From the NCBI RefSeq assembly GCF_039542385.1, contig NZ_BAABIA010000011.1, forward strand, positions 62,001-126,000: DNA of 64,000 bases, given 5' to 3'. The translations under genes and the position numbers were made by a program. Positions 20,141 to 28,908 of the stretch are shown one piece after another. The notes below the pieces were generated by a model. It ran no database searches, was not told where the DNA came from, and saw only the letters and a list, made by a program, of their open reading frames with translations. Position 1 is the first letter of the stretch. Each line of letters opens with the position of its first letter. The stretch is from Prosthecobacter algae. Its GTDB lineage: Bacteria; Verrucomicrobiota; Verrucomicrobiia; Verrucomicrobiales; Verrucomicrobiaceae.

Positions 20141-20424
20141 GGGGGAAGGGGACAAATTTCCTGGCAGGAGATGGCAATCAAGGGGATACGTCACCAATGA
20201 CGGCGGCGTGTGACAAAAGAGCCAGCCATGTAACCGTGCCGCTGCCCGGCAGTCTTGCAAGGATTGCGCGCAGATATGCGGATTTTGTGCGGAAGTGGGG
20301 TCTGGAGGACTTTGGAAAGAAACGCTCGGCCAAAAATTACAGCTATTTCAGCTACCTGCCCCACCCCCGAGAACTCGGGGTGGTCGCACAAAGGCCGCAT
20401 CGGCTACGTATTGCTCCCTATCTC

Positions 20425-22869
20425 ATGATACGTTGCGTTTACAGCCTGCCAGCCCTCCTCGTCGCCAGCCTTGGCCTTGCCGATGTCGTCCGTGCAGCCG
20501 AGCCGTTTGACATCTTCTTGGAGAAGCACTGCCTCAGTTGTCATGGTCCCGACAAAGTGAAGGGGGACTTGAGGATCGACCAGCTTTCGCGCGATTTCAA
20601 GCTGGGCGCGGATTCCCATCATTGGGCGGAGGTGATCGAGCAGGTGAATTCCGGCGAGATGCCTCCGAAGAAAGAGAAGAAACCGACGCAGGAGGAAATC
20701 GAGGCATTCGTCACCAGTCTCGACTCACGAATCAAAGAGGGCAGGGCGGGGCGAATGGCAGCGCGGCCAGCGGTGACTCATTATCGCCTGAGCCGGAAAG
20801 AGTATCAAAACACGGTCTATGACCTGCTCGGCGTGCGATACGATCCCGCCAAGCCCGGGGAGCTGAACGAAGACACGCTGTGGCATGGATTCGAGCGCAT
20901 CGGCTCGGAGCTGTCGCTTTCGCCGTCGCATGTGGATCGTTATTACCGTGCTGCGGGGACAGTGCTCGACCGCGCTTTTCCTCCCGCAGCATCTGGCGAG
21001 GCTCGCAAAGTCCGCAAGACTGCAGCGGATCTGCGTTACAACGGAGGCAAGGAACAGCAGGCGGCGCTGGACCGCTTCGGCATCAAGCGTCCACTGCGTT
21101 ATCTCCTCTTTCCAGGCACCGTTCAGAATGCGCTTTCACCCCAGTGGTTCGGGAAGATGGGGCCGGAGCATAGCGGGCTCTACAAAGTCCGCATCCAGGC
21201 CAGCGGCATCCGGCCCCTCGGTGGCCAGCCGGCTCATTTGAGCATCGGCAAGCGCACTGGAGAGGAGACGGTGGACAGTGTCATTGACCTGGACATCACC
21301 GCACCGGAGGACAAGCCGCAGGTCTATGAGTTCGAGGTGTTTCTCGAGATGCCCGCGACACTGGACTTCTGCATCGTGGCCACGGATGTGGTGGACAGAC
21401 GGAGTGGCGCGGCCTTCCGCAATGCCCTCTCCAGCAGAGGCGGCTACATTTTCACGCATAGCAGCGAGACCGTGCTCTTGAACCCTAACGCCCCGCAGAT
21501 GTTCGATGACAAAGGCAACGGCCTTTTTTCAACAGTGCTGCTCGATTGGATCGAATGGGAAGGGCCGCTGGCGACGGAAGTGGAAAAGTCCCGGCGCAAG
21601 GACGTGGTCCCCGCCGATGACGCGACACCCGAAGTCGTCGCGGAACATCTGCAACGCTTTGCCGAACGCGCCTGGCGCAGGTCTGTCAACAAGGAGGAAC
21701 TGGAGCCATATTTGCAATCTTACCGGATCGAACGCGAGGCCGGTGAAAAACCTGCCGAAGCCTATCGTGTGGCGATGCAAGGCGTGCTGACCTCACGAAA
21801 TTTCCTCTACCTCGTCGAAGGCGAGCCAACGGCCCGCGAGCAACTCACTGACATGGAACTTGCATCGCGGCTCTCGTATTTTCTCTGGAGTTCGATGCCG
21901 GATGAAACTCTTTTCAATGCAGCCAAAGGAGGCGGTCTGAAGGACGAGGGATTGAAAAAGGAGCTGGACCGGATTTTGACGGACAGCAAGATCAACCGCT
22001 TCGTGGATGACTTCTCGCGGCAGTGGTTGCAACTGCACCGTGTTGGCATGTTCCCGCCGGACAAAAAGCTCTACCCCGCCTACGACCGCTGGCTCGAAAT
22101 GAGCATGCGGGCCGAGCCTGTGGAGTTCTTCCGCGAAATGCTCACGAAGAACCTGCCCATGGAGTCCTTTCTTGATTCCGACTGGACCATGGCCAATTCC
22201 CGGCTCTGCGATTTCTACGGATTGCCGGAGCCGAAGACAGCCAGCTTCCAGCGTGTCTCCCTCAAGCCCGAGGATCGTCGTGGCGGACTTCTGACGATGG
22301 GGGCGACGCTCGGGCTGACCTCGGACGGAACGCGTCACCGCCCGGTGCACCGGGGCGTCTGGCTCAGCGAGGTGATCTTTGCCAAGACGCCCCCGCCACC
22401 GCCGGCCAACGTGCCAGCGATCGAACCCAATCCGCCCAAAAGCCCCAAGGCGACCCTTCGGGATAAACTGGAGGCGCACCGCAACGACGCGAATTGCGCC
22501 GCCTGCCATGCAAAGATTGATCCGCTCGGCCTCGCCTGGGATAACTACGATGCCATCGGTCAGTGGCGCACGCATGAAAATGTCGCGGCAGGAGTCGGGG
22601 CAAACCCTTTGGTGAATCCCAGTGGCGAGATGCCCGACGGTCGTGCCTTCAAAGATGCCAACGATTTCAAACGCTTGCTGATCGAAGATCGCGAGAAGTT
22701 CGTGCAAGCCTTCATCGAACACCTCTGCACCTACGGCCTCCGCCGCGTGCTCACCGTGGATGACCAGGAAGACATCACGGCCATCGTCACCGAAGCGAAG
22801 AAAAACCAATACGGGGTCAAGGACATCGTCCGGGCCGTGGCTCTCTCGAAGCTGATGAGAAAGCGATGA
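20425..22869 (+). CDS. DUF1592-type (planctomycete cytochrome C) secreted protein
   Basis: 814 residues from ATG at 20425; the longer open frame from 20197 is untypical intergenic sequence. A signal peptide (about 1-24) is followed by a cytochrome c motif CLSCH (Cys36, Cys39, His40), DUF1587 ([15 protein letters not shown]), DUF1595/1592 ([17 protein letters not shown]), DUF1588 ([28 protein letters not shown]) and DUF1585 with a second haem-type motif CAACH (Cys691, Cys694, His695). The family is typical of Planctomycetes and Verrucomicrobia and is almost always beside a DUF1552 gene, found here at 24079. The two are thought to act in extracytoplasmic redox or polymer breakdown, but no reaction is established. 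Confidence 0.9.
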
Positions 22870-22880
22870 CAACTCTGGGG

Positions 22881-23170
22881 TCTCCCACAGATTCAGAGAG
22901 GCCCACGGATTACTTTTAACGAACAAATATCTACAACACAATCGGCAGGCATCCTTGAATCTGCGGGAGACTCGGGTTGCCAGCAGATTCAGAGAGGCCC
23001 CCAGATTACTTTTTAACAATCAAAGATCTACAATCCAATCTGCTGGCATCCTTGAATCTGCGGGAGACTCGGGTTGCCAGCAGATTTAGAGAGGCCCACA
23101 GATTACTTTTTGAATGACTCAAGATGCTAAAATTCAATCGGCTGGTCTCCCTCAATCTAAGGGAGACCCA
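22881..23170. repeat. Tandem array of three ~97-bp palindromic repeats (left side of the GxxExxY unit)
   Basis: Three units begin CAGATT at 22888, 22984 and 23081 (periods 96 and 97 bp). Units share GAGAGGCCCACAGATTACTT near the start and TGAATCTGCGGGAGACTCGG near the end. Each is self-complementary: in unit 1 TCTCCCACAGATTCA (22881-22895) pairs with TGAATCTGCGGGAGA (22956-22970) with one mismatch. Unit 3 is diverged and contains the ATG of the GxxExxY gene (23114). A reverse-oriented copy of unit 3 lies at 23959-24051. Confidence 0.85.
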
Positions 23171-23929
23171 GTTACGCATGCTTTCATTGGGCACGCAATG
23201 AAAGTGCACTCAGCCGTTGGGCCTGGGCTTGGTGAGGAGATCTACCATCAAGAGCTTGTCGGTGCCCTCACAAAGGGGGGTATTGTGCACCTTTCAAAAC
23301 CGAGGCGGGATTTGGTCTATCGCGGGATTGTGGCGGATACCTTCGAGCCTGATTTCGTCATTGAGGAGCATTTCATTCCGGAGTTGAAATGTCTCCGTGG
23401 ATCATTTGCGCCAGAACACTTGGTTCAGGTGTTCTGCTACTGCAAGTTTTGGCGACTACGTACCTGTCTGCTGGTTGATTTCGGCAAGCAGAGTCTAATG
23501 TGGAAGCGATTGTTATATCGTTCGCAATCAGCGGGATTCACAGAAACCAGTCTGCCCGATTTCGTTTCAAATCGAGTCCTGGCGACCACCATCATCCAAG
23601 CTATCAGTCAATGCCTGGACGAAGTCGGTCTTGGTTATCGGCAAACGACCTGGAACGGTCTGGTCAGGGCGGCCATGCAAGCCACCGGTTTCCAAGTTCA
23701 TCTCAATCCAACCGTCACCGTTCTCAGCCACCCTGGCATCACGGTGTGCAGTCTTGTCGTCAATGGTGCCTGCGCAGTCTATGTCACGGCGCTGACCGAT
23801 GGCATCAACGCCACGGATCGCGCAACCCTTCAAACCCATCTCCGCTGGCTTAATCTTGGTTGGGGCATCATGTTTCATTTTGGCAAATCCACCGCCGACT
23901 TAGCCTTCGTCCAACATCCCAAAAGGTAA
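23114..23929 (+). CDS. GxxExxY protein, two-module PD-(D/E)XK-like
   Basis: 271 residues. Module 1 (about 20-135) has the family signature G38-L-G-E41-E-I-Y44, then a nuclease-like core with Asp80 and ELK (Glu90, Lys92) in DFVIEEHFIPELKCL, and VQVFCYCKFWRLRTCLLVDFGK. Module 2 (about 155-265) repeats the layout (GLGYRQTTW, LQTHLRWLNLGWGIMFHFGK) but has lost Glu of the signature and the D-ExK residues, so it looks like an inactive partner domain. The first 18 residues are encoded by repeat unit 3, and the stop TAA (23927-23929) is at the edge of another repeat copy. The gene sits between the normally adjacent DUF1592 and DUF1552 genes. Role unknown; nuclease activity is inferred only from the motif. 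Confidence 0.8.
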   Translation: MTQDAKIQSAGLPQSKGDPVTHAFIGHAMKVHSAVGPGLGEEIYHQELVGALTKGGIVHLSKPRRDLVYRGIVADTFEPDFVIEEHFIPELKCLRGSFAPEHLVQVFCYCKFWRLRTCLLVDFGKQSLMWKRLLYRSQSAGFTETSLPDFVSNRVLATTIIQAISQCLDEVGLGYRQTTWNGLVRAAMQATGFQVHLNPTVTVLSHPGITVCSLVVNGACAVYVTALTDGINATDRATLQTHLRWLNLGWGIMFHFGKSTADLAFVQHPKR

Positions 23930-24051
23930 TCTATGAGCTTGTCTGAATCTGCTGGAATCCAAGTCTCCCGCAGATTCAAGAAGGCCAGCCGATTGAATTT
24001 AGCATCTTGAGTTATTCAAAAATAATCTATGGGCCTCTGTGAATCTGCTGG
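23928..24051. repeat. Right-hand, inverted copies of the palindromic repeat
   Basis: A full copy at 23959-24051 reads, on the minus strand, like unit 3 of the left array (ACTCAAGATGCTAAATTCAA and AATCGGCTGG are shared), so the two form about 90-bp inverted repeats round the GxxExxY gene. A partial copy, 23928-23954, has the same right end (AATCTATG...GAATCTGCTGG) and overlaps the stop codon. Ends are CCGCAGATTC and GAATCTGCTGG. Confidence 0.8.
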
Positions 24052-24078
24052 AAATCACCAACGAATCTAAAAACAAGT

Positions 24079-25458
24079 ATGAACTACCTCTCCCAATCCT
24101 GGCTGATTGATCGCCGGCATGCGCTCAAAGCACTGGGCTCGTTTATCTCCCTGCCTCTGCTGGAATGCATGGTGCCGCTTCGCGCAGCGGCGGCAGAGAA
24201 GATTACTGCCACACCACGGCGCAGCGCCTTCATTTATTTGGCGAATGGCGTCCATTCGCTGAACTACCAGATCACCACCTCAGGGAAAGACTACAAGTTC
24301 TCCCGGTCGCTCATGCCTCTGGAAAAGCACCGCCAGGTCATCACTCCCATCAGCGGTCTGCATCATCCGGGAAGCCTCAGTCATCACCACAACTGCATCA
24401 GCGTCTGGCTAACGGGAGGAAAGCTCGGACCTTCCGATAAGAACACCATCTCGGTGGACCAGAAGATGGCCGAAGTCACCGCGCAGCATACCCGCTACCC
24501 GTCGCTGGAGGTTGCCATCACTCAGGAATCTCTCGCCTGGACGGCTGACGGAGTCCGGTTGCCTGCGATGCGCCGTTGCAGTGAGATCTTTTCCTCCATG
24601 TTTGAGGAACCGAAAGGCGGCATCGCAGCCCAGCGGCGGGCCTTGCGCCGCAAAGGCAGCGTGCTGGATGACAACCTCGCCGAAGTACGTCGGCTAGAGA
24701 AGAAAATGGGAACGCAGGACAAAGGGCGCATGGATCAATACCTCACCTCCGTTCGCGAGGCAGAGATCCGCACGCGCAGGGCCGATGCCTGGCTTGATAC
24801 GCCGCTGCCCGCTATATCCGAAGCGGACCGCAAACGCACCAACCGTGATATCGCGGACACCAAGGCAGGGGATTATTTCCGCACGGTCTATGACCTCATG
24901 GTGCTGGCGTTTCAAACGGACATGACCCGCGTGGCCACCTTCAGTCTAGGCGGTGAAGGCCAGGCCATTGCCATCCCAGAAATCGGCATCACAGAGTCAC
25001 GTCACCAGCTCAGCCACCACGGCGGAGATCTGGGCTACATGGAAAAGCTAACCAACTATGATACCTTTGCCATCGAGCAGTTCAGCTACTTCCTCACTCG
25101 GCTAGCGGAGACCCATGACCTCAATGGCAAGTCGTTGCTCGGCTCCACCATGTCCCTCTTTGGCAGCGGCATGTCCTACGGCCACAGCCATGGCAATGCC
25201 AACCTCCCACTGGTGCTCGCTGGCGGCTCGGACCTCGGTCTTAAGCACGGGCAGCACCTGGACTTTAACAAGATGTCTCCAGGATTCCAAGGCTACGCGC
25301 TCGATCCCGAAGGAGCACTTACGACCGCGCATTACCAGCTCTGCAGCCGCCCCGCAAACACCGATGCCCACATGAGCAACCTGCTCCTTCTCATGGCCCA
25401 ACGCATGGGCGTGGAGACTGACCAGTTTGGCGACAGCAACAAGGTGATCACACTATGA
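24079..25458 (+). CDS. DUF1552 domain protein, Tat-exported
   Basis: 459 residues. A twin-arginine signal is visible at the start ([23 protein letters not shown]). The rest fits DUF1552: [14 protein letters not shown], a His-rich [16 protein letters not shown] region, [20 protein letters not shown] and [23 protein letters not shown], a likely metal site. The family resembles the DUF1501/sulfatase-like exported proteins of this phylum and is normally encoded next to a DUF1592 gene. Here the pair is split by the GxxExxY unit. The stop overlaps the next gene by 4 bp (ATGA), so the downstream secreted protein is coupled to it. Confidence 0.9.
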
Positions 25459-26714
25459 AGCGCTTCTTCCTCTCCTTGGGTTCTTTGCTCTTGGTTCTTG
25501 GGGCATCCATAACGACCGCAGAGGAGCCTTTCCGCCCAGAGGTGGGCAAGTTTCCCCCTCTCGAAAAGGCGCATTCCTATCGGGGTGAACTCGTGTTTGT
25601 GGACCATGCCAACCGCCGTGGCAGCCTCCGGGTGCAGGGTGCAGGCACCTATTTCCGCAATGCCCCGCACCCCTTTGCCATGCTGCCTTATGGCATCGTC
25701 CGTTACCACGGTGCACCGGCGGATCTGCGGGACATTCCGCTCGGTACTGTGCTGCATGTCCGGGCCTTCCTTCCGCTAGACCCGAAGATCTCCGCCGTGC
25801 CGGTGTTGCCAGTGGATAACAAGGATAAAATCGCGGGATATAGTGGCATTGGCATCGCACCAGCCGAGAACCACGTGCTGCTCCTCGAAGACGAACCCAG
25901 CCACTGCCAGCGTGAGGGCTTAGTTTGGAAACTCAAAGAATTGGAGATTAAAAACAACGAAGGCATGATCGTCGCCAGTCGCGAGTCCAAAGCTGGCGCG
26001 AAGGGCAAAGCGAGCGAGGAAAACCTGACCTTCGATGCGGCCACCCGCATCTGGCGCGGCCGCGAATACCTCGGCATCGCCGACCTAATCACGGATGGCA
26101 TCTGGCCTGCCAGTGGCAAGAAATCGCTCGGCGGCCAAGCCGTCCTGTTGGGGATCACGTGGAAGCCCACGCCCGATGGAGTGTTCACCCGCTTCCACAT
26201 CTCGGACATCTGGCTGGATGAGGCCGCGATGCAACGTGCCGCCCAGAATCAAACCGAGACACACAAGGCCTTCATTCGCAGTCGCTGGATGCCCGCCTGG
26301 GTGGATGCCGTGGAGTATGGCAAGTTCGGTCGCGCCACCGTGACCGCGACCTTGTTTGGCGGCATGGATGCCTCTCTGTATGCCGATTTCCAGAAAGACA
26401 GCCAGGTGCTGGTAAATGGGGCTGAGAACACCTTAAAGCATGCAGGCGGTAATTACGGCCCTGCCCACATGGCCTCCAAGGGGCCCATCCGCAACGTCAC
26501 AAAAACCTCTGAAGACGCACCCCTGGGCAGCAGTGGCATCCAGGTCCAGTTTGAGACTGACCTCGTCATCGAAGGCATCCGTTCGGGGCGCATCGTCCGC
26601 ATCCGTCCAGCGAGCTGGCTCCAGGTGCAGGTGCCTCGGGAGGAGTATCTGGGCGATGGCTCTTTCAGCCACGAAGACCGCTTCCCGACCCCAGCCATCT
26701 TCCCCAAGTATTGA
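25455..26714 (+). CDS. Secreted protein of unknown function, paralog 1
   Basis: 419 residues with a signal peptide (about 1-22, [24 protein letters not shown]). I do not recognise a named family. The mature part has a beta-rich, possibly OB-like first section ([31 protein letters not shown]), a coiled-coil-like middle ([21 protein letters not shown]) and a conserved end ([14 protein letters not shown]). It shares most of its sequence with the gene at 27005, and a short broken copy lies between them. Overlap with DUF1552 by 4 bp implies the same operon and a linked role outside the cytoplasm. Confidence 0.75.
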
Positions 26715-26729
26715 GGACTGAGATGAGCT

Positions 26730-26795
26730 CCAGCAGATTCAGGTAGGCCAGCAGATCATAAAAAATCAATCTGCGGGCCTCCTCGAATCTGCTGG
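26730..26795. repeat. Solo short palindromic repeat, copy after paralog 1
   Basis: Perfect 11-bp ends CCAGCAGATTC (26730-26740) and GAATCTGCTGG (26785-26795), inner arms AGGCCAGCAGAT and ATCTGCGGGCCT nearly complementary. The ends match those of the repeats flanking the GxxExxY gene. Confidence 0.75.
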
Positions 26796-26820
26796 GGATA
26801 ACCTACCACGAAACAGCCAC

Positions 26821-26903
26821 ATGAACCGCCCACTTCTGATCACCCTTCTGGCTGGAAAGTTTCCACCTATGGAAAAAGCACATTCCTATCGGTTCGAGGA
26901 CTG
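26821..26903 (+). pseudogene. Truncated third copy of the secreted paralog
   Basis: ATGAACCGCCCACTTCTGAT matches the first codons of the gene at 27005, then jumps to GCTGGAAAGTTTCC (codon about 28 of that gene) and through the HSYR codons, and then joins directly to sequence matching the 3' end of paralog 1 (TCGAGGACTGAGATGAGC). The frame could encode only about 27 residues. This is an internally deleted duplicate, followed again by a repeat copy. Confidence 0.75.
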
Positions 26904-26912
26904 AGATGAGCC

Positions 26913-26979
26913 CCAGCAGATTCAGGTAGGCCAGAAGATCATAAAAGAATCAATCTGCGGGCCTCCTCGAATCTGCTGG
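26913..26979. repeat. Solo short palindromic repeat, copy before paralog 2
   Basis: Same 11-bp ends, CCAGCAGATTC (26913-26923) and GAATCTGCTGG (26969-26979). It is a near-identical duplicate of the copy at 26730-26795. Confidence 0.75.
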
Positions 26980-27004
26980 AAATCACCCACCACAAAAAAG
27001 CCAT

Positions 27005-28270
27005 ATGAACCGTCCACTTCTGATCACCCTTCTGGGCCTGCTTGTCACCGCTTCCTCTGCCGCAGATGTGCCGTTCCGGCCTGAGGCTGGGAAGTTTCCG
27101 CCTTTGGAAAAAGCACATTCCTATCGGGGCGAGCTGGTGTTTGTGGACCACGCGAATCGTCGCGGCAGCCTCCGCGTGCAAGGCACGGGCACGTTCCGCC
27201 GCAATGATCCGCACCCTTTCGCCCTGCTCCCTTACGGTCAGGTCCGCTACCACGGAGCACCGGCGGATTTGCGAGACATCCCGTTAGGCACCGTGCTGCA
27301 TGTCCGCGCTTATCTACCTCCAGATCCGAAGATCTCCGCCGTACCGGTGCTGCCCATCAACAATAAGGAAAAAGACGCGGATCACAATCGCGGTGCAGGC
27401 ATTGCACCGGCCGAAAATCACGTGCTCCTCCTCGAAGATGAGCCCAGCCACTGCCTGCGCGAGGGCTTGGTCTGGAAGCTCAAAGAACTCGACCTCAAGA
27501 ATAACGCGGGACTGATCGTTGCCAGCCGCGAACCGAAAGAGGGTGTCGGTGCAGAGGGCAAAGCCAACGAGGAAAACCTGACCTTCGATGCCGCCACCCG
27601 TATCTGGCGCGGCCGCGAATGTCTCTCCTTTGCCGACTTGATCACGGAAGGCATCTGGCCTGCCAGTGGCAAGAAAACGCTCGGCGGCCAGGCTGTCCTG
27701 CTGGGGATCACCTGGAAGCCCACGCCAGGCGGTGTTTTCACCCGCTTTCACATCTCGGATATTTGGCTGGATGACACCGCCATGCAACGATCCTCCCATC
27801 TCCAGGCCGAGGCGCACAAAGCCTTCATTCGCAGCCGTTGGATGCCCGCCTGGGTGGATGCCGTCGAGTATGGCAAATTTGGCCGTGCCACCGTCACCGC
27901 AACCTTGTTCGGCGGAGCGGACCCCGCCATCTACGCCGATTTCAAGAAAGGCATCTCCGCTTTCGTGAACGGCGTGGAAAATACTCTGAAGCACACCGAA
28001 GGGGGCACTGCCGGGCCCACCCAATTGGCGTCACGTGGCGAGCTGCTAGAAGTCACAGCATCCTCCGATGACATCCCATTAGGCAGCAGCGGCATCCAGA
28101 TTCGTTTTGAGACAGACCTCATCACCGAAGGCATCCGCCCCACCCGAGTCATTCGCATCCGTCCTGCGGACTGGCCCGATGTTCACATCCCACGGGAGGA
28201 ATACCTCGACAGCGGGAAATTCAAGCACGAAGACCGCTTCCCGACACCTGTCATCTTTCCTGAATACTAA
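27005..28270 (+). CDS. Secreted protein of unknown function, paralog 2
   Basis: 421 residues with a signal peptide (MNRPLLITLLGLLVTASSA). It aligns along its full length with the protein at 25455, including [68 protein letters not shown] and [14 protein letters not shown]. Differences are spread evenly, as expected for an older tandem duplication. The 290 bp between the copies hold two palindromic repeats and a truncated third copy. Function is unknown; export and linkage to DUF1552 suggest an extracytoplasmic role. Confidence 0.75.
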   Translation: MNRPLLITLLGLLVTASSAADVPFRPEAGKFPPLEKAHSYRGELVFVDHANRRGSLRVQGTGTFRRNDPHPFALLPYGQVRYHGAPADLRDIPLGTVLHVRAYLPPDPKISAVPVLPINNKEKDADHNRGAGIAPAENHVLLLEDEPSHCLREGLVWKLKELDLKNNAGLIVASREPKEGVGAEGKANEENLTFDAATRIWRGRECLSFADLITEGIWPASGKKTLGGQAVLLGITWKPTPGGVFTRFHISDIWLDDTAMQRSSHLQAEAHKAFIRSRWMPAWVDAVEYGKFGRATVTATLFGGADPAIYADFKKGISAFVNGVENTLKHTEGGTAGPTQLASRGELLEVTASSDDIPLGSSGIQIRFETDLITEGIRPTRVIRIRPADWPDVHIPREEYLDSGKFKHEDRFPTPVIFPEY

Positions 28271-28383
28271 TGTCTCCTCACTTGGGTGGCTAACAAAAAG
28301 CGTGACTGCTTGGCTAGGATGTGGTTCACCATTGCTTGATTCACCTTGTGCGGGTGCCATAATCCTCTTCACGTTCTTGCATG

Positions 28384-28908
28384 TTACTCGTGGCTAGCAT
28401 ATGGCGGAGGTGATCCGATTCTCTCCGTCAGCAGATCGCGAAGATATCCGGTGGCTTCATTCAGCAAGTCCCTGCAACAGCCCTCGTAACCCGTCCACGT
28501 TCCAAGTTCGGACGGGGGACGAAGAACCTCCGTCATTCGCTTCAAATGAGTGGCATCCTCACCGGAGAAGATTTCTGGTCCACCACAAATGAGGGCGCGG
28601 GCAAAATTGTCCGTTGCCTCATCCGGATTTTCATTCAGGCCGTGATAACTCAAGCCGACCAGCAAGTGAAAAAGCGGATTGCCAACCACGATTCCGGACC
28701 CGGCGTAGCATTCGGGTAAAACGGAGAGGGCGCTCAAAGCCTCTTCATAGTCTCCGAGACGGACCGCAGCGTTTGCAATGGAAAGAAGCAGCCAGACTTG
28801 CTGTGTTTCATTGAGATCTTTCTGCAATCGCGACCAAGCACTCTGATAGGCAGCAAGCGCATCCCCAAACCTCCCGGCGTTCATGTGTTCGTCAGCATCT
28901 TCAAACAT
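28384..28908 (-). CDS. TPR-like hypothetical protein
   Basis: 174 residues from ATG at 28908 (MFEDADEHMNAG); a TTG-started extension to 28998 is less likely. Helix pairs such as GRFGDALAAYQSAWSRLQ and IANAAVRLGDYEEALSALSVLPE follow the tetratricopeptide pattern, and a third pair is likely at NPLFHLLVGLSYHGLNENPDEATDNFARAL. Such proteins bind partners rather than catalyse. The ordinary G+C content and the absence of a signal peptide indicate a cytoplasmic protein. It has no obvious operon partner. Confidence 0.6.
   Translation of the reverse strand: MFEDADEHMNAGRFGDALAAYQSAWSRLQKDLNETQQVWLLLSIANAAVRLGDYEEALSALSVLPECYAGSGIVVGNPLFHLLVGLSYHGLNENPDEATDNFARALICGGPEIFSGEDATHLKRMTEVLRPPSELGTWTGYEGCCRDLLNEATGYLRDLLTERIGSPPPYASHE

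Follow-up and report, generated by a model that had tools for sequence, protein, structure and literature searches.

In a 64,000-nucleotide (nt) stretch of a Prosthecobacter algae contig (NZ_BAABIA010000011.1, positions 62,001 to 126,000 of the forward strand; this whole stretch is called the window here), a gene for a GxxExxY protein lies within a set of hairpin-forming inverted repeats. Three hairpins stand to the left of the gene and a half-arm and a hairpin to its right, and the gene takes up the space in between, as a preliminary description of this DNA had proposed. We compared the locus with its relatives in other genomes. On balance, we lean towards the view that it belongs to a broad class of selfish elements with palindromes at their borders, in which a nuclease acts on its own class of repeat. 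The features concerned, in window coordinates, are as follows.

20197-22869, plus strand: upstream host gene of the PSD/DUF1592 type (PSD2-5, PSCyt), from a Pfam scan
22884-22967: left hairpin 1, arms at 22884-22911 (plus) and 22940-22967 (minus)
22980-23064: left hairpin 2, arms at 22980-23007 (plus) and 23037-23064 (minus)
23077-23163: left hairpin 3, degenerate, arms at 23077-23104 (plus) and 23136-23163 (minus)
23114-23929, plus strand: GxxExxY (PDDEXK_3) gene, 271 amino acids, ATG at 23114 and stop codon at 23927-23929
23928-23955, minus strand: right half-arm, which shares bases with the stop codon
23967-24051: right hairpin, inverted relative to the left hairpins, arms at 23967-23994 (plus) and 24024-24051 (minus)
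24079-25458, plus strand: downstream host gene, HXXSHH/DUF1552, from a Pfam scan
26730-26795: gene-free hairpin 1, with a short loop, arms at 26730-26757 (plus) and 26768-26795 (minus)
26913-26979: gene-free hairpin 2, arms at 26913-26940 (plus) and 26952-26979 (minus), within a tandem duplication with a spacing of 183-184 nt

The start codon had been placed in the third repeat unit on the left, and the ATG does fall in the loop of left hairpin 3, the right arm of which is coding and supplies the N-terminus of the protein (QSAGLPQSKGD). At the other end, the TAA stop overlaps the half-arm, which is the reverse copy at whose edge the stop had been described, and the inverted copy reported to the right of the gene is the right hairpin. 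The repeat units themselves exist, although they are 84-87 nt long, with the left ones spaced at 96-97 nt, rather than the ~90 bp given at first. By reading, the arms in the window start with CCAGCAGATT or CCCRCAGATT. Matches to the half-arm CCAGCAGATTCAGGGAGGCCAGCAGATT, defined as at least 19 of 28 positions identical, number 15 in the window and 13 of these are at the gene and the gene-free hairpins; in 20 shuffled windows the mean was 0.3 and the maximum 2. When folded as DNA, five of the six hairpins were better than their shuffles (0-2 of 200 shuffles equally good) and left hairpin 3 was no better (30 of 200 equally good). The shorter palindromes that had been seen about 3 kb further on without the gene are the hairpins at 26730-26795 and 26913-26979. 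They lie between two tandem paralogues (25455-26714 and 27005-28270) that have no Pfam match, and the tandem duplication near 26.7-27.0 kb (spacing 183-184 nt) carries one hairpin together with a fragment of the gene start.

The window protein is a clear member of the little-studied GxxExxY family (TIGR04256/PF13366 PDDEXK_3), which is named by its motif. It matched TIGR04256 with an E value of 3.6e-26 and 91.8 bits (cut-off 35) in two stretches, the better one at residues 21-133, and PF13366 with an E value of 5.3e-25 and 88.5 bits (cut-off 22). The catalytic-type module spans approximately residues 20-133 and contains E41, D80, E90, K92, Q105 and Y109, where the residues conserved in the module are E, D, ExK, Q and Y; the Q/Y motif is presumably the one named QxxxY. 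E41, D80, E90 and K92 are invariant across 13 two-module proteins, the window protein among them. A second module, lacking the catalytic residues, could be aligned over the C-terminal half, in agreement with the PD-(D/E)XK module and the degenerate second module of the preliminary description. The Pfam scan of this protein returned PDDEXK_3 only, with no HUH tyrosine transposase domain and no LAGLIDADG, GIY-YIG, HNH or other known homing domain, and no known transposase domain was found by the TIGR04256-type and Pfam profile searches. The protein was not matched by PADLOC, where two relatives gave matches at E values of 0.025-0.046 only (Cas4, Cas4b and E1-E2). A sequence search of the PDB gave no match at E up to 1, and two queries of viral contigs found no relatives. 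The predicted model of a one-module protein, with a predicted local distance difference test score (pLDDT) of 95.3, was closest to the PDB structure SSO0001 (E 9.4e-4), which we take to be a Cas4, followed by lambda exonuclease, LHK-Exo and RecE. The two-module model of the window protein was poor (pLDDT 55), and its weak matches to Holliday resolvases were set aside.

Inverted repeats around GxxExxY genes were surveyed by aligning the upstream flank of each gene to the reverse complement of its downstream flank, with a threshold score of at least 30. The family is carried by 32 of the 37 genomes of the order that were searched. From 137 matches, 13 were dropped as second modules of one frame or as edge or fragment matches and 10 of the remaining 124 were left out; one of the resulting 114 loci had a flank under 200 nt, leaving 113 in the arm test. 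Inverted repeats were found at 80 of these 113 genes, compared with 0 of 53 neighbouring open reading frames (ORFs), which scored 23 at most. Shuffled flanks reached a maximum of 26, and flanks taken from two different loci scored at least 30 in 19 of 897 pairs. Arms were present at 25 of 27 two-module genes and at 55 of 86 one-module genes. Beyond the order, they were found at 32 of 44 loci, comprising 22 of 28 in a sample of the phylum and, among 16 relatives of the L036 protein elsewhere, 10 (L numbers denote loci and G numbers genomes); two loci with too short a flank were left out of this test, and another batch of loci lost one likewise. The L036 relatives scoring at least 30 include Caldithrix, Planctomycetaceae, Lentisphaerae, Deltaproteobacteria, Desulfuromonadaceae, Lewinella, Anaerolineae and Alphaproteobacteria records, and those scoring 21-28 are Flavobacteriales, Stahlbacteria, Bacteroidota, Anaerolineaceae and Fodinibius records. 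One of the 16 relatives, L255, is a second copy of L036 and is excluded from the median, mismatch, active-site, coupling, unit-length and within-genome copy counts given here and below; L313, the frame of which is seemingly broken, is excluded from the unit-length count as well. Over 130 elements, the median arm was 33 nt long, the median gap was 19 nt to the start and 14 nt to the stop, and the median span was 578 nt.

The genome of the window has five GxxExxY genes, and three of the four others are flanked by matched inverted repeats of different sequence. These are L001 (ACAACCACGGAAGACACAGAACACACGGAA), L002 (ACAGGATTGACAAGATTTCAGGATT), where the gene lies between pheS- and pheT-like genes, and L003 (AACCACAGATAACACAGAGTCCAC), where it lies between hsdS- and hsdR-like genes, all four names coming from reading of the translations. 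No inverted repeats were found around the gene at L004. The arms are locus-specific in sequence yet matched within a locus. The idea that every GxxExxY gene might be bounded by the repeat of the window fails if taken literally, but in a wider form it applies to most of the genes surveyed: they are bounded, mostly by a different repeat of their own, and the clear exception is a clade of dead nucleases considered below. As side observations, L003 is by reading a type I restriction locus with tandem repeats of 110 and 103 bp on the two sides of the gene. The downstream arm is coding at L001 (1932-1982), L046 and L093 (dapA-like/sialidase-like site, by reading), where it is part of the beginning of the following gene, which resembles a signal peptide (MLRKSFFLLPCVLCLPWLSLSA).

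We considered whether the arms could be generic intergenic palindromes or hairpin terminators that stand beside these genes by chance, or whether horizontally acquired genes may have landed in repeat-rich gaps. Gene-free palindromes are indeed common in the genus. However, none of the 53 neighbouring ORFs of the same loci had arms, the arms are specific to the locus and matched across the gene, and active-site-dead GxxExxY genes in the same genomes have none. This explanation is already contradicted by the control counts and we regard it as highly improbable.

The presence of arms was compared with the state of the active site in 173 loci with both flanks. The D, E/D and K residues were intact in all 127 repeat-bounded proteins, and 21 of the 46 proteins without a detected inverted repeat had lost the active site. 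These 21 proteins (L004, L064, L106-L119 and others) form one clade, all without arms, which has one member each in 17 of 24 genomes of the genus. The dead, repeat-free clade looks domesticated, and its lack of arms fits with a nuclease being needed to keep the arms up.

On a tree of 114 modules, the repeat types group by clade as judged by eye, examples being CAGGATTAA, CACTAATGG, CGCAAAAAGG, CACGGAATA, GGTAGAAAGATT and the window class CAGCAGATTCAGGGAGGCC. Among 86 elements with unrelated flanks, one per site, arm similarity was correlated with protein similarity (Mantel rho 0.257, null maximum 0.097 in 999 permutations), and the nearest protein neighbour shared the arm (score at least 20) in 55 of 86 cases versus 11.1% of all pairs. 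An earlier and smaller Mantel test with 81 loci was weak (rho 0.126, null maximum 0.133). That the arm class tracks the protein clade is also what any protein-operator pair would show. The repeats might then be sites through which the protein regulates the operon it belongs to, with hairpins that have no further role and a gene that is simply an accessory gene gained by horizontal transfer. Such control would not need a matched copy past the stop codon, yet arms are found at both ends (medians of 19 and 14 nt), and the gene-free hairpins, the empty sites and the conserved catalytic residues would be left unexplained. We consider an operator of this kind improbable.

The unit length of the arms differed with the number of modules as well. 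One-module arms mostly have a period of 8-11 nt, most commonly 9, and two-module arms one of 14-18 nt. An 8-11-nt period was found in 78 of 94 one-module versus 0 of 35 two-module elements, and in 20 of 131 shuffled arms. A label of long versus short period was poor for one-module arms, since 18 is 2 x 9 and 21 of 55 were called long, and the short-period score alone separated the two groups better. Changes to or from the two-module state occur at least three times over the tree, a count that carries no direction. These data suggest that the modules may read the arm units directly.

The site of the window was examined in other genomes through DUF1552 orthologues, which gave one locus per genome in 23 of 30 congeneric genomes; G004 and G017 each have a second copy that was left aside. 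The element was present in 5 of the 23, and in 13 the DUF1592-type and DUF1552 genes were joined by 33-50 nt, in line with the earlier claim that the element splits two genes that are normally neighbours. Empty sites of the kind that the preliminary description had asked for therefore exist. Another three loci held other insertions, namely a four-helix-bundle gene in G003 (PF05635 at G003:C3:17205-17483), by reading a gene-free CAGGATT hairpin in G012, and 672 nt in G009; in the remaining two, no DUF1592 end was found upstream. Some of the empty gaps hold short repeat-like stretches, for example CACTCCACTGCTCCA and AACCAAGAACAAGGAACC, which are perhaps the remains of other arms. Element presence changed at least four times on the tree of the DUF1552 host gene, and the occupied and empty gaps are too diverged to set the element ends to the base.

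The gap between pheS and pheT was surveyed in 30 of the 46 pheS-bearing genomes, and 29 loci were readable as one was short of pheT. The gene was present in 13 of the 29 and 16 were gene-free. By reading, 5 of the 16 gene-free gaps hold arms or hairpins, which fall into about five repeat classes: one CAGGATT arm in G037, CACTAATG in G109, CACGAATG/CATTAGTG in G009, CGCAGAGG in G023 and GACAGAAGAATGG in G113. Insertions seem to have struck these short co-directional gaps repeatedly. In a separate case, GxxExxY elements of the same class lie on opposite sides of a shared stretch of ~1.9 kb in related genomes (L065 versus L067/L068); in L067 and L065, the place where the other species has its element showed no arm of this class.

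It had been asked whether the repeat is confined to this locus, and the answer is divided. The exact pattern occurs in its own genome in this region only, with all four exact matches at 84-89 kb of contig C11, whereas gene-free hairpins of the window class are scattered through the genus; a strict palindrome of this class was found in 26 of 48 congeneric genomes (0 of 48 for a control pattern). Of 20 gene-free stretches that were read, most are arm-loop-arm structures of ~70 nt, often between ORFs of a crude list, and two (L242 and L243) are inside a long ORF. Gene-free palindromes were commoner in genomes with a window-clade gene, being present in 9 of 11 versus 16 of 37 genomes (Fisher p 0.039, own arms removed by hand). 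Several gene-free hairpins of one genome, G009 (L236-L239 and L241), have a longer flank in common (CCAATTCACAAAAGGTG-like), as though a larger unit had been copied, and L237 adjoins a tandem repeat readable as protein.

Elements at the same site in different species were compared pairwise. The two arms within an element matched each other better than the same arm did between species in 52 of 67 pairs and, without five pairs that mix element classes, in 47 of 62 pairs and at 12 of 18 sites. One case is pheS-pheT, where both sides carry ACAGGAGGACAGGAAGGCAGGAGG in G007 and ACAGGATTRACAAGATTTCAGGATT in G000. Such comparisons suggest that the two arms change in concert. Inversion switching was set aside, as same-site flanks mostly match left to left and right to right by reading.

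Matched arms could also be a property of RNA. The arms would form a stem in the transcript that is cut by RNase III or the GxxExxY protein, selection for RNA pairing would keep them matched, insertion into an operon would be harmless and the protein would act on RNA or autoregulate. This possibility is favoured by the four-helix-bundle genes (PF05635, 23S_rRNA_IVP), the family of the ribosomal RNA (rRNA) intervening sequences, which have the same kind of arms: when one gene was taken per genome in 30 genomes, 21 of the 30 were bounded by inverted repeats of their own at a score of at least 30. The arm periods are mainly 7, 14 and 20-21 nt, with units such as GTTTAAGGTTTAAAGTTT, GTTTGCGGTGGTTGGC and GAGACAATGAGACAATG (loci L145-L174, L147 being in the genome of the window), and two unrelated proteins have one architecture in common. 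The PF05635 family, as its name indicates, is that of the ORF of rRNA intervening sequences, and passages of PMC4990558 describe a Coxiella 23S element, termed selfish, with a small ORF inside a 28-bp terminal stem, which RNase III cuts out in vitro. Of 71 repeat-bounded loci whose neighbours were clear (crude ORF list), 46 also have both neighbouring genes co-oriented with the element. However, the excess of G-U over A-C mismatches expected of an RNA stem is missing, with 92 G-U-type versus 111 A-C-type mismatches in the 86 elements with unrelated flanks (p 0.21), 133 versus 174 in all 130 elements and 87 versus 128 in a first set of 81 loci (p 0.006). No signature of a sense-RNA stem was seen in the arm mismatches. 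Plain selection for a stem does not require arm sequence to track the protein clade, as it does, and no Rfam family was found at gathering score over 22000-28500. We judge an element that works at the RNA level to be unlikely, while giving it some weight.

The preferred reading remains that of a selfish element whose nuclease acts on its own repeats, and the pattern suggests a DNA element of a sort not yet described, one that maintains itself and is probably mobile. We propose that each element consists of an inverted repeat able to form hairpins and a GxxExxY gene that lies within or between them, and that the product of this gene may be a small PD-(D/E)XK nuclease of the Cas4/lambda-exonuclease/RecB branch. 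The nuclease would recognise the short units that make up its own arms, with a unit of ~9 bp for each module or of 15-18 bp if two modules are fused, and would cut or nick the repeats as DNA, perhaps in an extruded cruciform or single-stranded hairpin. Repair of the break would copy one arm onto the other, and the arms would stay matched in this way; occasionally, it would put the element or a gene-free hairpin into a new short intergenic gap. The gene-free hairpins would be non-autonomous relatives of the element. The comparisons show the arms, the coupling of arms to the protein tree, the patchy occupancy of sites, the gene-free copies and the association of arms with intact active sites; binding, cutting and mobility are what we infer for the GxxExxY element.

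A bolder generalisation is offered tentatively, and we hold it with some doubt. The GxxExxY genes may be the autonomous members of a new self-homogenising palindromic class found in many phyla. Its Cas4-like nuclease would read the DNA units of its own ends by a simple drifting code, with one module per ~9-bp unit and fused double modules per 15-18-bp unit, while protein and arms co-diversify. The four-helix-bundle family would share this architecture, and the rRNA intervening sequences would be special cases of it. Many of the short palindromic repeat arrays between bacterial genes would then stem from elements of these two families.

Several observations weigh against a mobile nuclease element that maintains its own repeats. 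Elements are carried in more than one species at 17 of 48 sites (81 loci), which implies long persistence at sites. The preliminary description had considered a protein that spreads or maintains palindromic repeats, and the data do not show such spreading. The best module identity within a genome was 67% among 141 pairs at unrelated sites and, with no near-identical copies, recent transposition was not seen; moreover, the 16 of 37 genomes noted above hold gene-free palindromes while lacking a window-clade gene. The structural matches are distant, with template modelling scores (TM-scores) of 0.43-0.53 and a single match at E up to 0.001. Among proteins without a detected inverted repeat, 25 of 46 retain the active site, several of them with weak sub-threshold arms, and since the dead, repeat-free group is one clade, its link between nuclease and arms amounts to one evolutionary event. 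A short period is absent from 16 of 94 one-module elements, and with only 2-3 independent pairs no sign test of the link between two modules and period can reach 0.05. When counted by site, concerted change was not significant (12 of 18); 28 of the same-site pairs all come from pheS-pheT, and the loci had been selected beforehand for an inverted-repeat score of at least 30, a choice that favours concerted change. When whole 200-nt flanks were compared, similarity was higher within the locus in only 6 of 62 pairs and between species in 56 of 62, a comparison that is hard to interpret because these flanks hold conserved host genes. Given the pairs from one site, the selection for good arms and the whole-flank result, concerted change is suggested but unproven. 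Finally, since the four-helix-bundle genes have another fold and the same architecture, the nuclease may not be what maintains the arms.

If our reading is true, a function and a cognate substrate could be assigned to a common protein family that has so far had neither, and more than 100 natural protein-repeat pairs would constitute a ready experiment on the co-diversification of a nuclease and its target and on the effect of module duplication on target length. The origin of many short palindromic repeats of bacterial genomes would be explained as well, and these repeats would be tied to the old puzzle of rRNA intervening sequences.

Among open-licence full texts in PubMed Central, we found no paper that links GxxExxY, the family accessions or six of the repeat strings to such elements. 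The window element differs from insertion sequences in having no known transposase domain. As to homing endonuclease elements, PD-(D/E)XK homing enzymes exist and empty alleles are found here; the known homing domains were not found in the window protein. Cas4, lambda exonuclease and RecE act in adaptation of clustered regularly interspaced short palindromic repeats (CRISPR) or in recombination. They are the best structural matches of the predicted model, with the conserved E, D, ExK, Q and Y, but these are distant matches with a TM-score of about 0.5 or less. To our knowledge, none of the three is bounded by cognate inverted repeats. The COG4636 PD-(D/E)XK proteins of cyanobacteria belong to another family and resemble the GxxExxY genes as multi-copy, scattered nuclease genes. 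In the passages of PMC551604 that deal with them, they are related to Holliday resolvases and their many scattered copies are likened to mobile elements, with no recurrent neighbour, no tie to known mobile elements and no mention of flanking repeats.

The likeness to rRNA intervening sequences is in the matched terminal inverted repeats around a small ORF, which were found here too. The differences are that the window element lies between DUF1592-type and DUF1552 genes and not in 23S or 16S rRNA, that the GxxExxY ORF has another fold and that there are many repeat classes.

A close parallel is with repetitive extragenic palindromic (REP) sequences and their REP-associated tyrosine transposases (RAYTs). 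As far as passages of PMC3733652 describe them, REPtrons, and TIRtrons with long terminal inverted repeats, consist of a palindrome-flanked gene with gene-free palindromes elsewhere in the genome, and the genes are repeat-specific where several repeat families co-occur. Like a REPtron, the window gene is flanked by palindromes and has gene-free copies 3 kb away at 26730-26979; strict palindromes occur in 26 of 48 congeneric genomes, and its own genome has no exact copy outside the region. The arms of GxxExxY elements differ in being arrays of three or two units that diversify with the protein, and by reading no GTAG/CGTC tag, as defined in PMC3733652, was seen at the arm ends here. A RAYT is a tyrosine transposase, whereas the window protein shows PD-(D/E)XK only. 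Although the enzyme that defines REP/RAYT systems is absent from the element, the best reading is that GxxExxY elements work like REP/RAYT with another enzyme.

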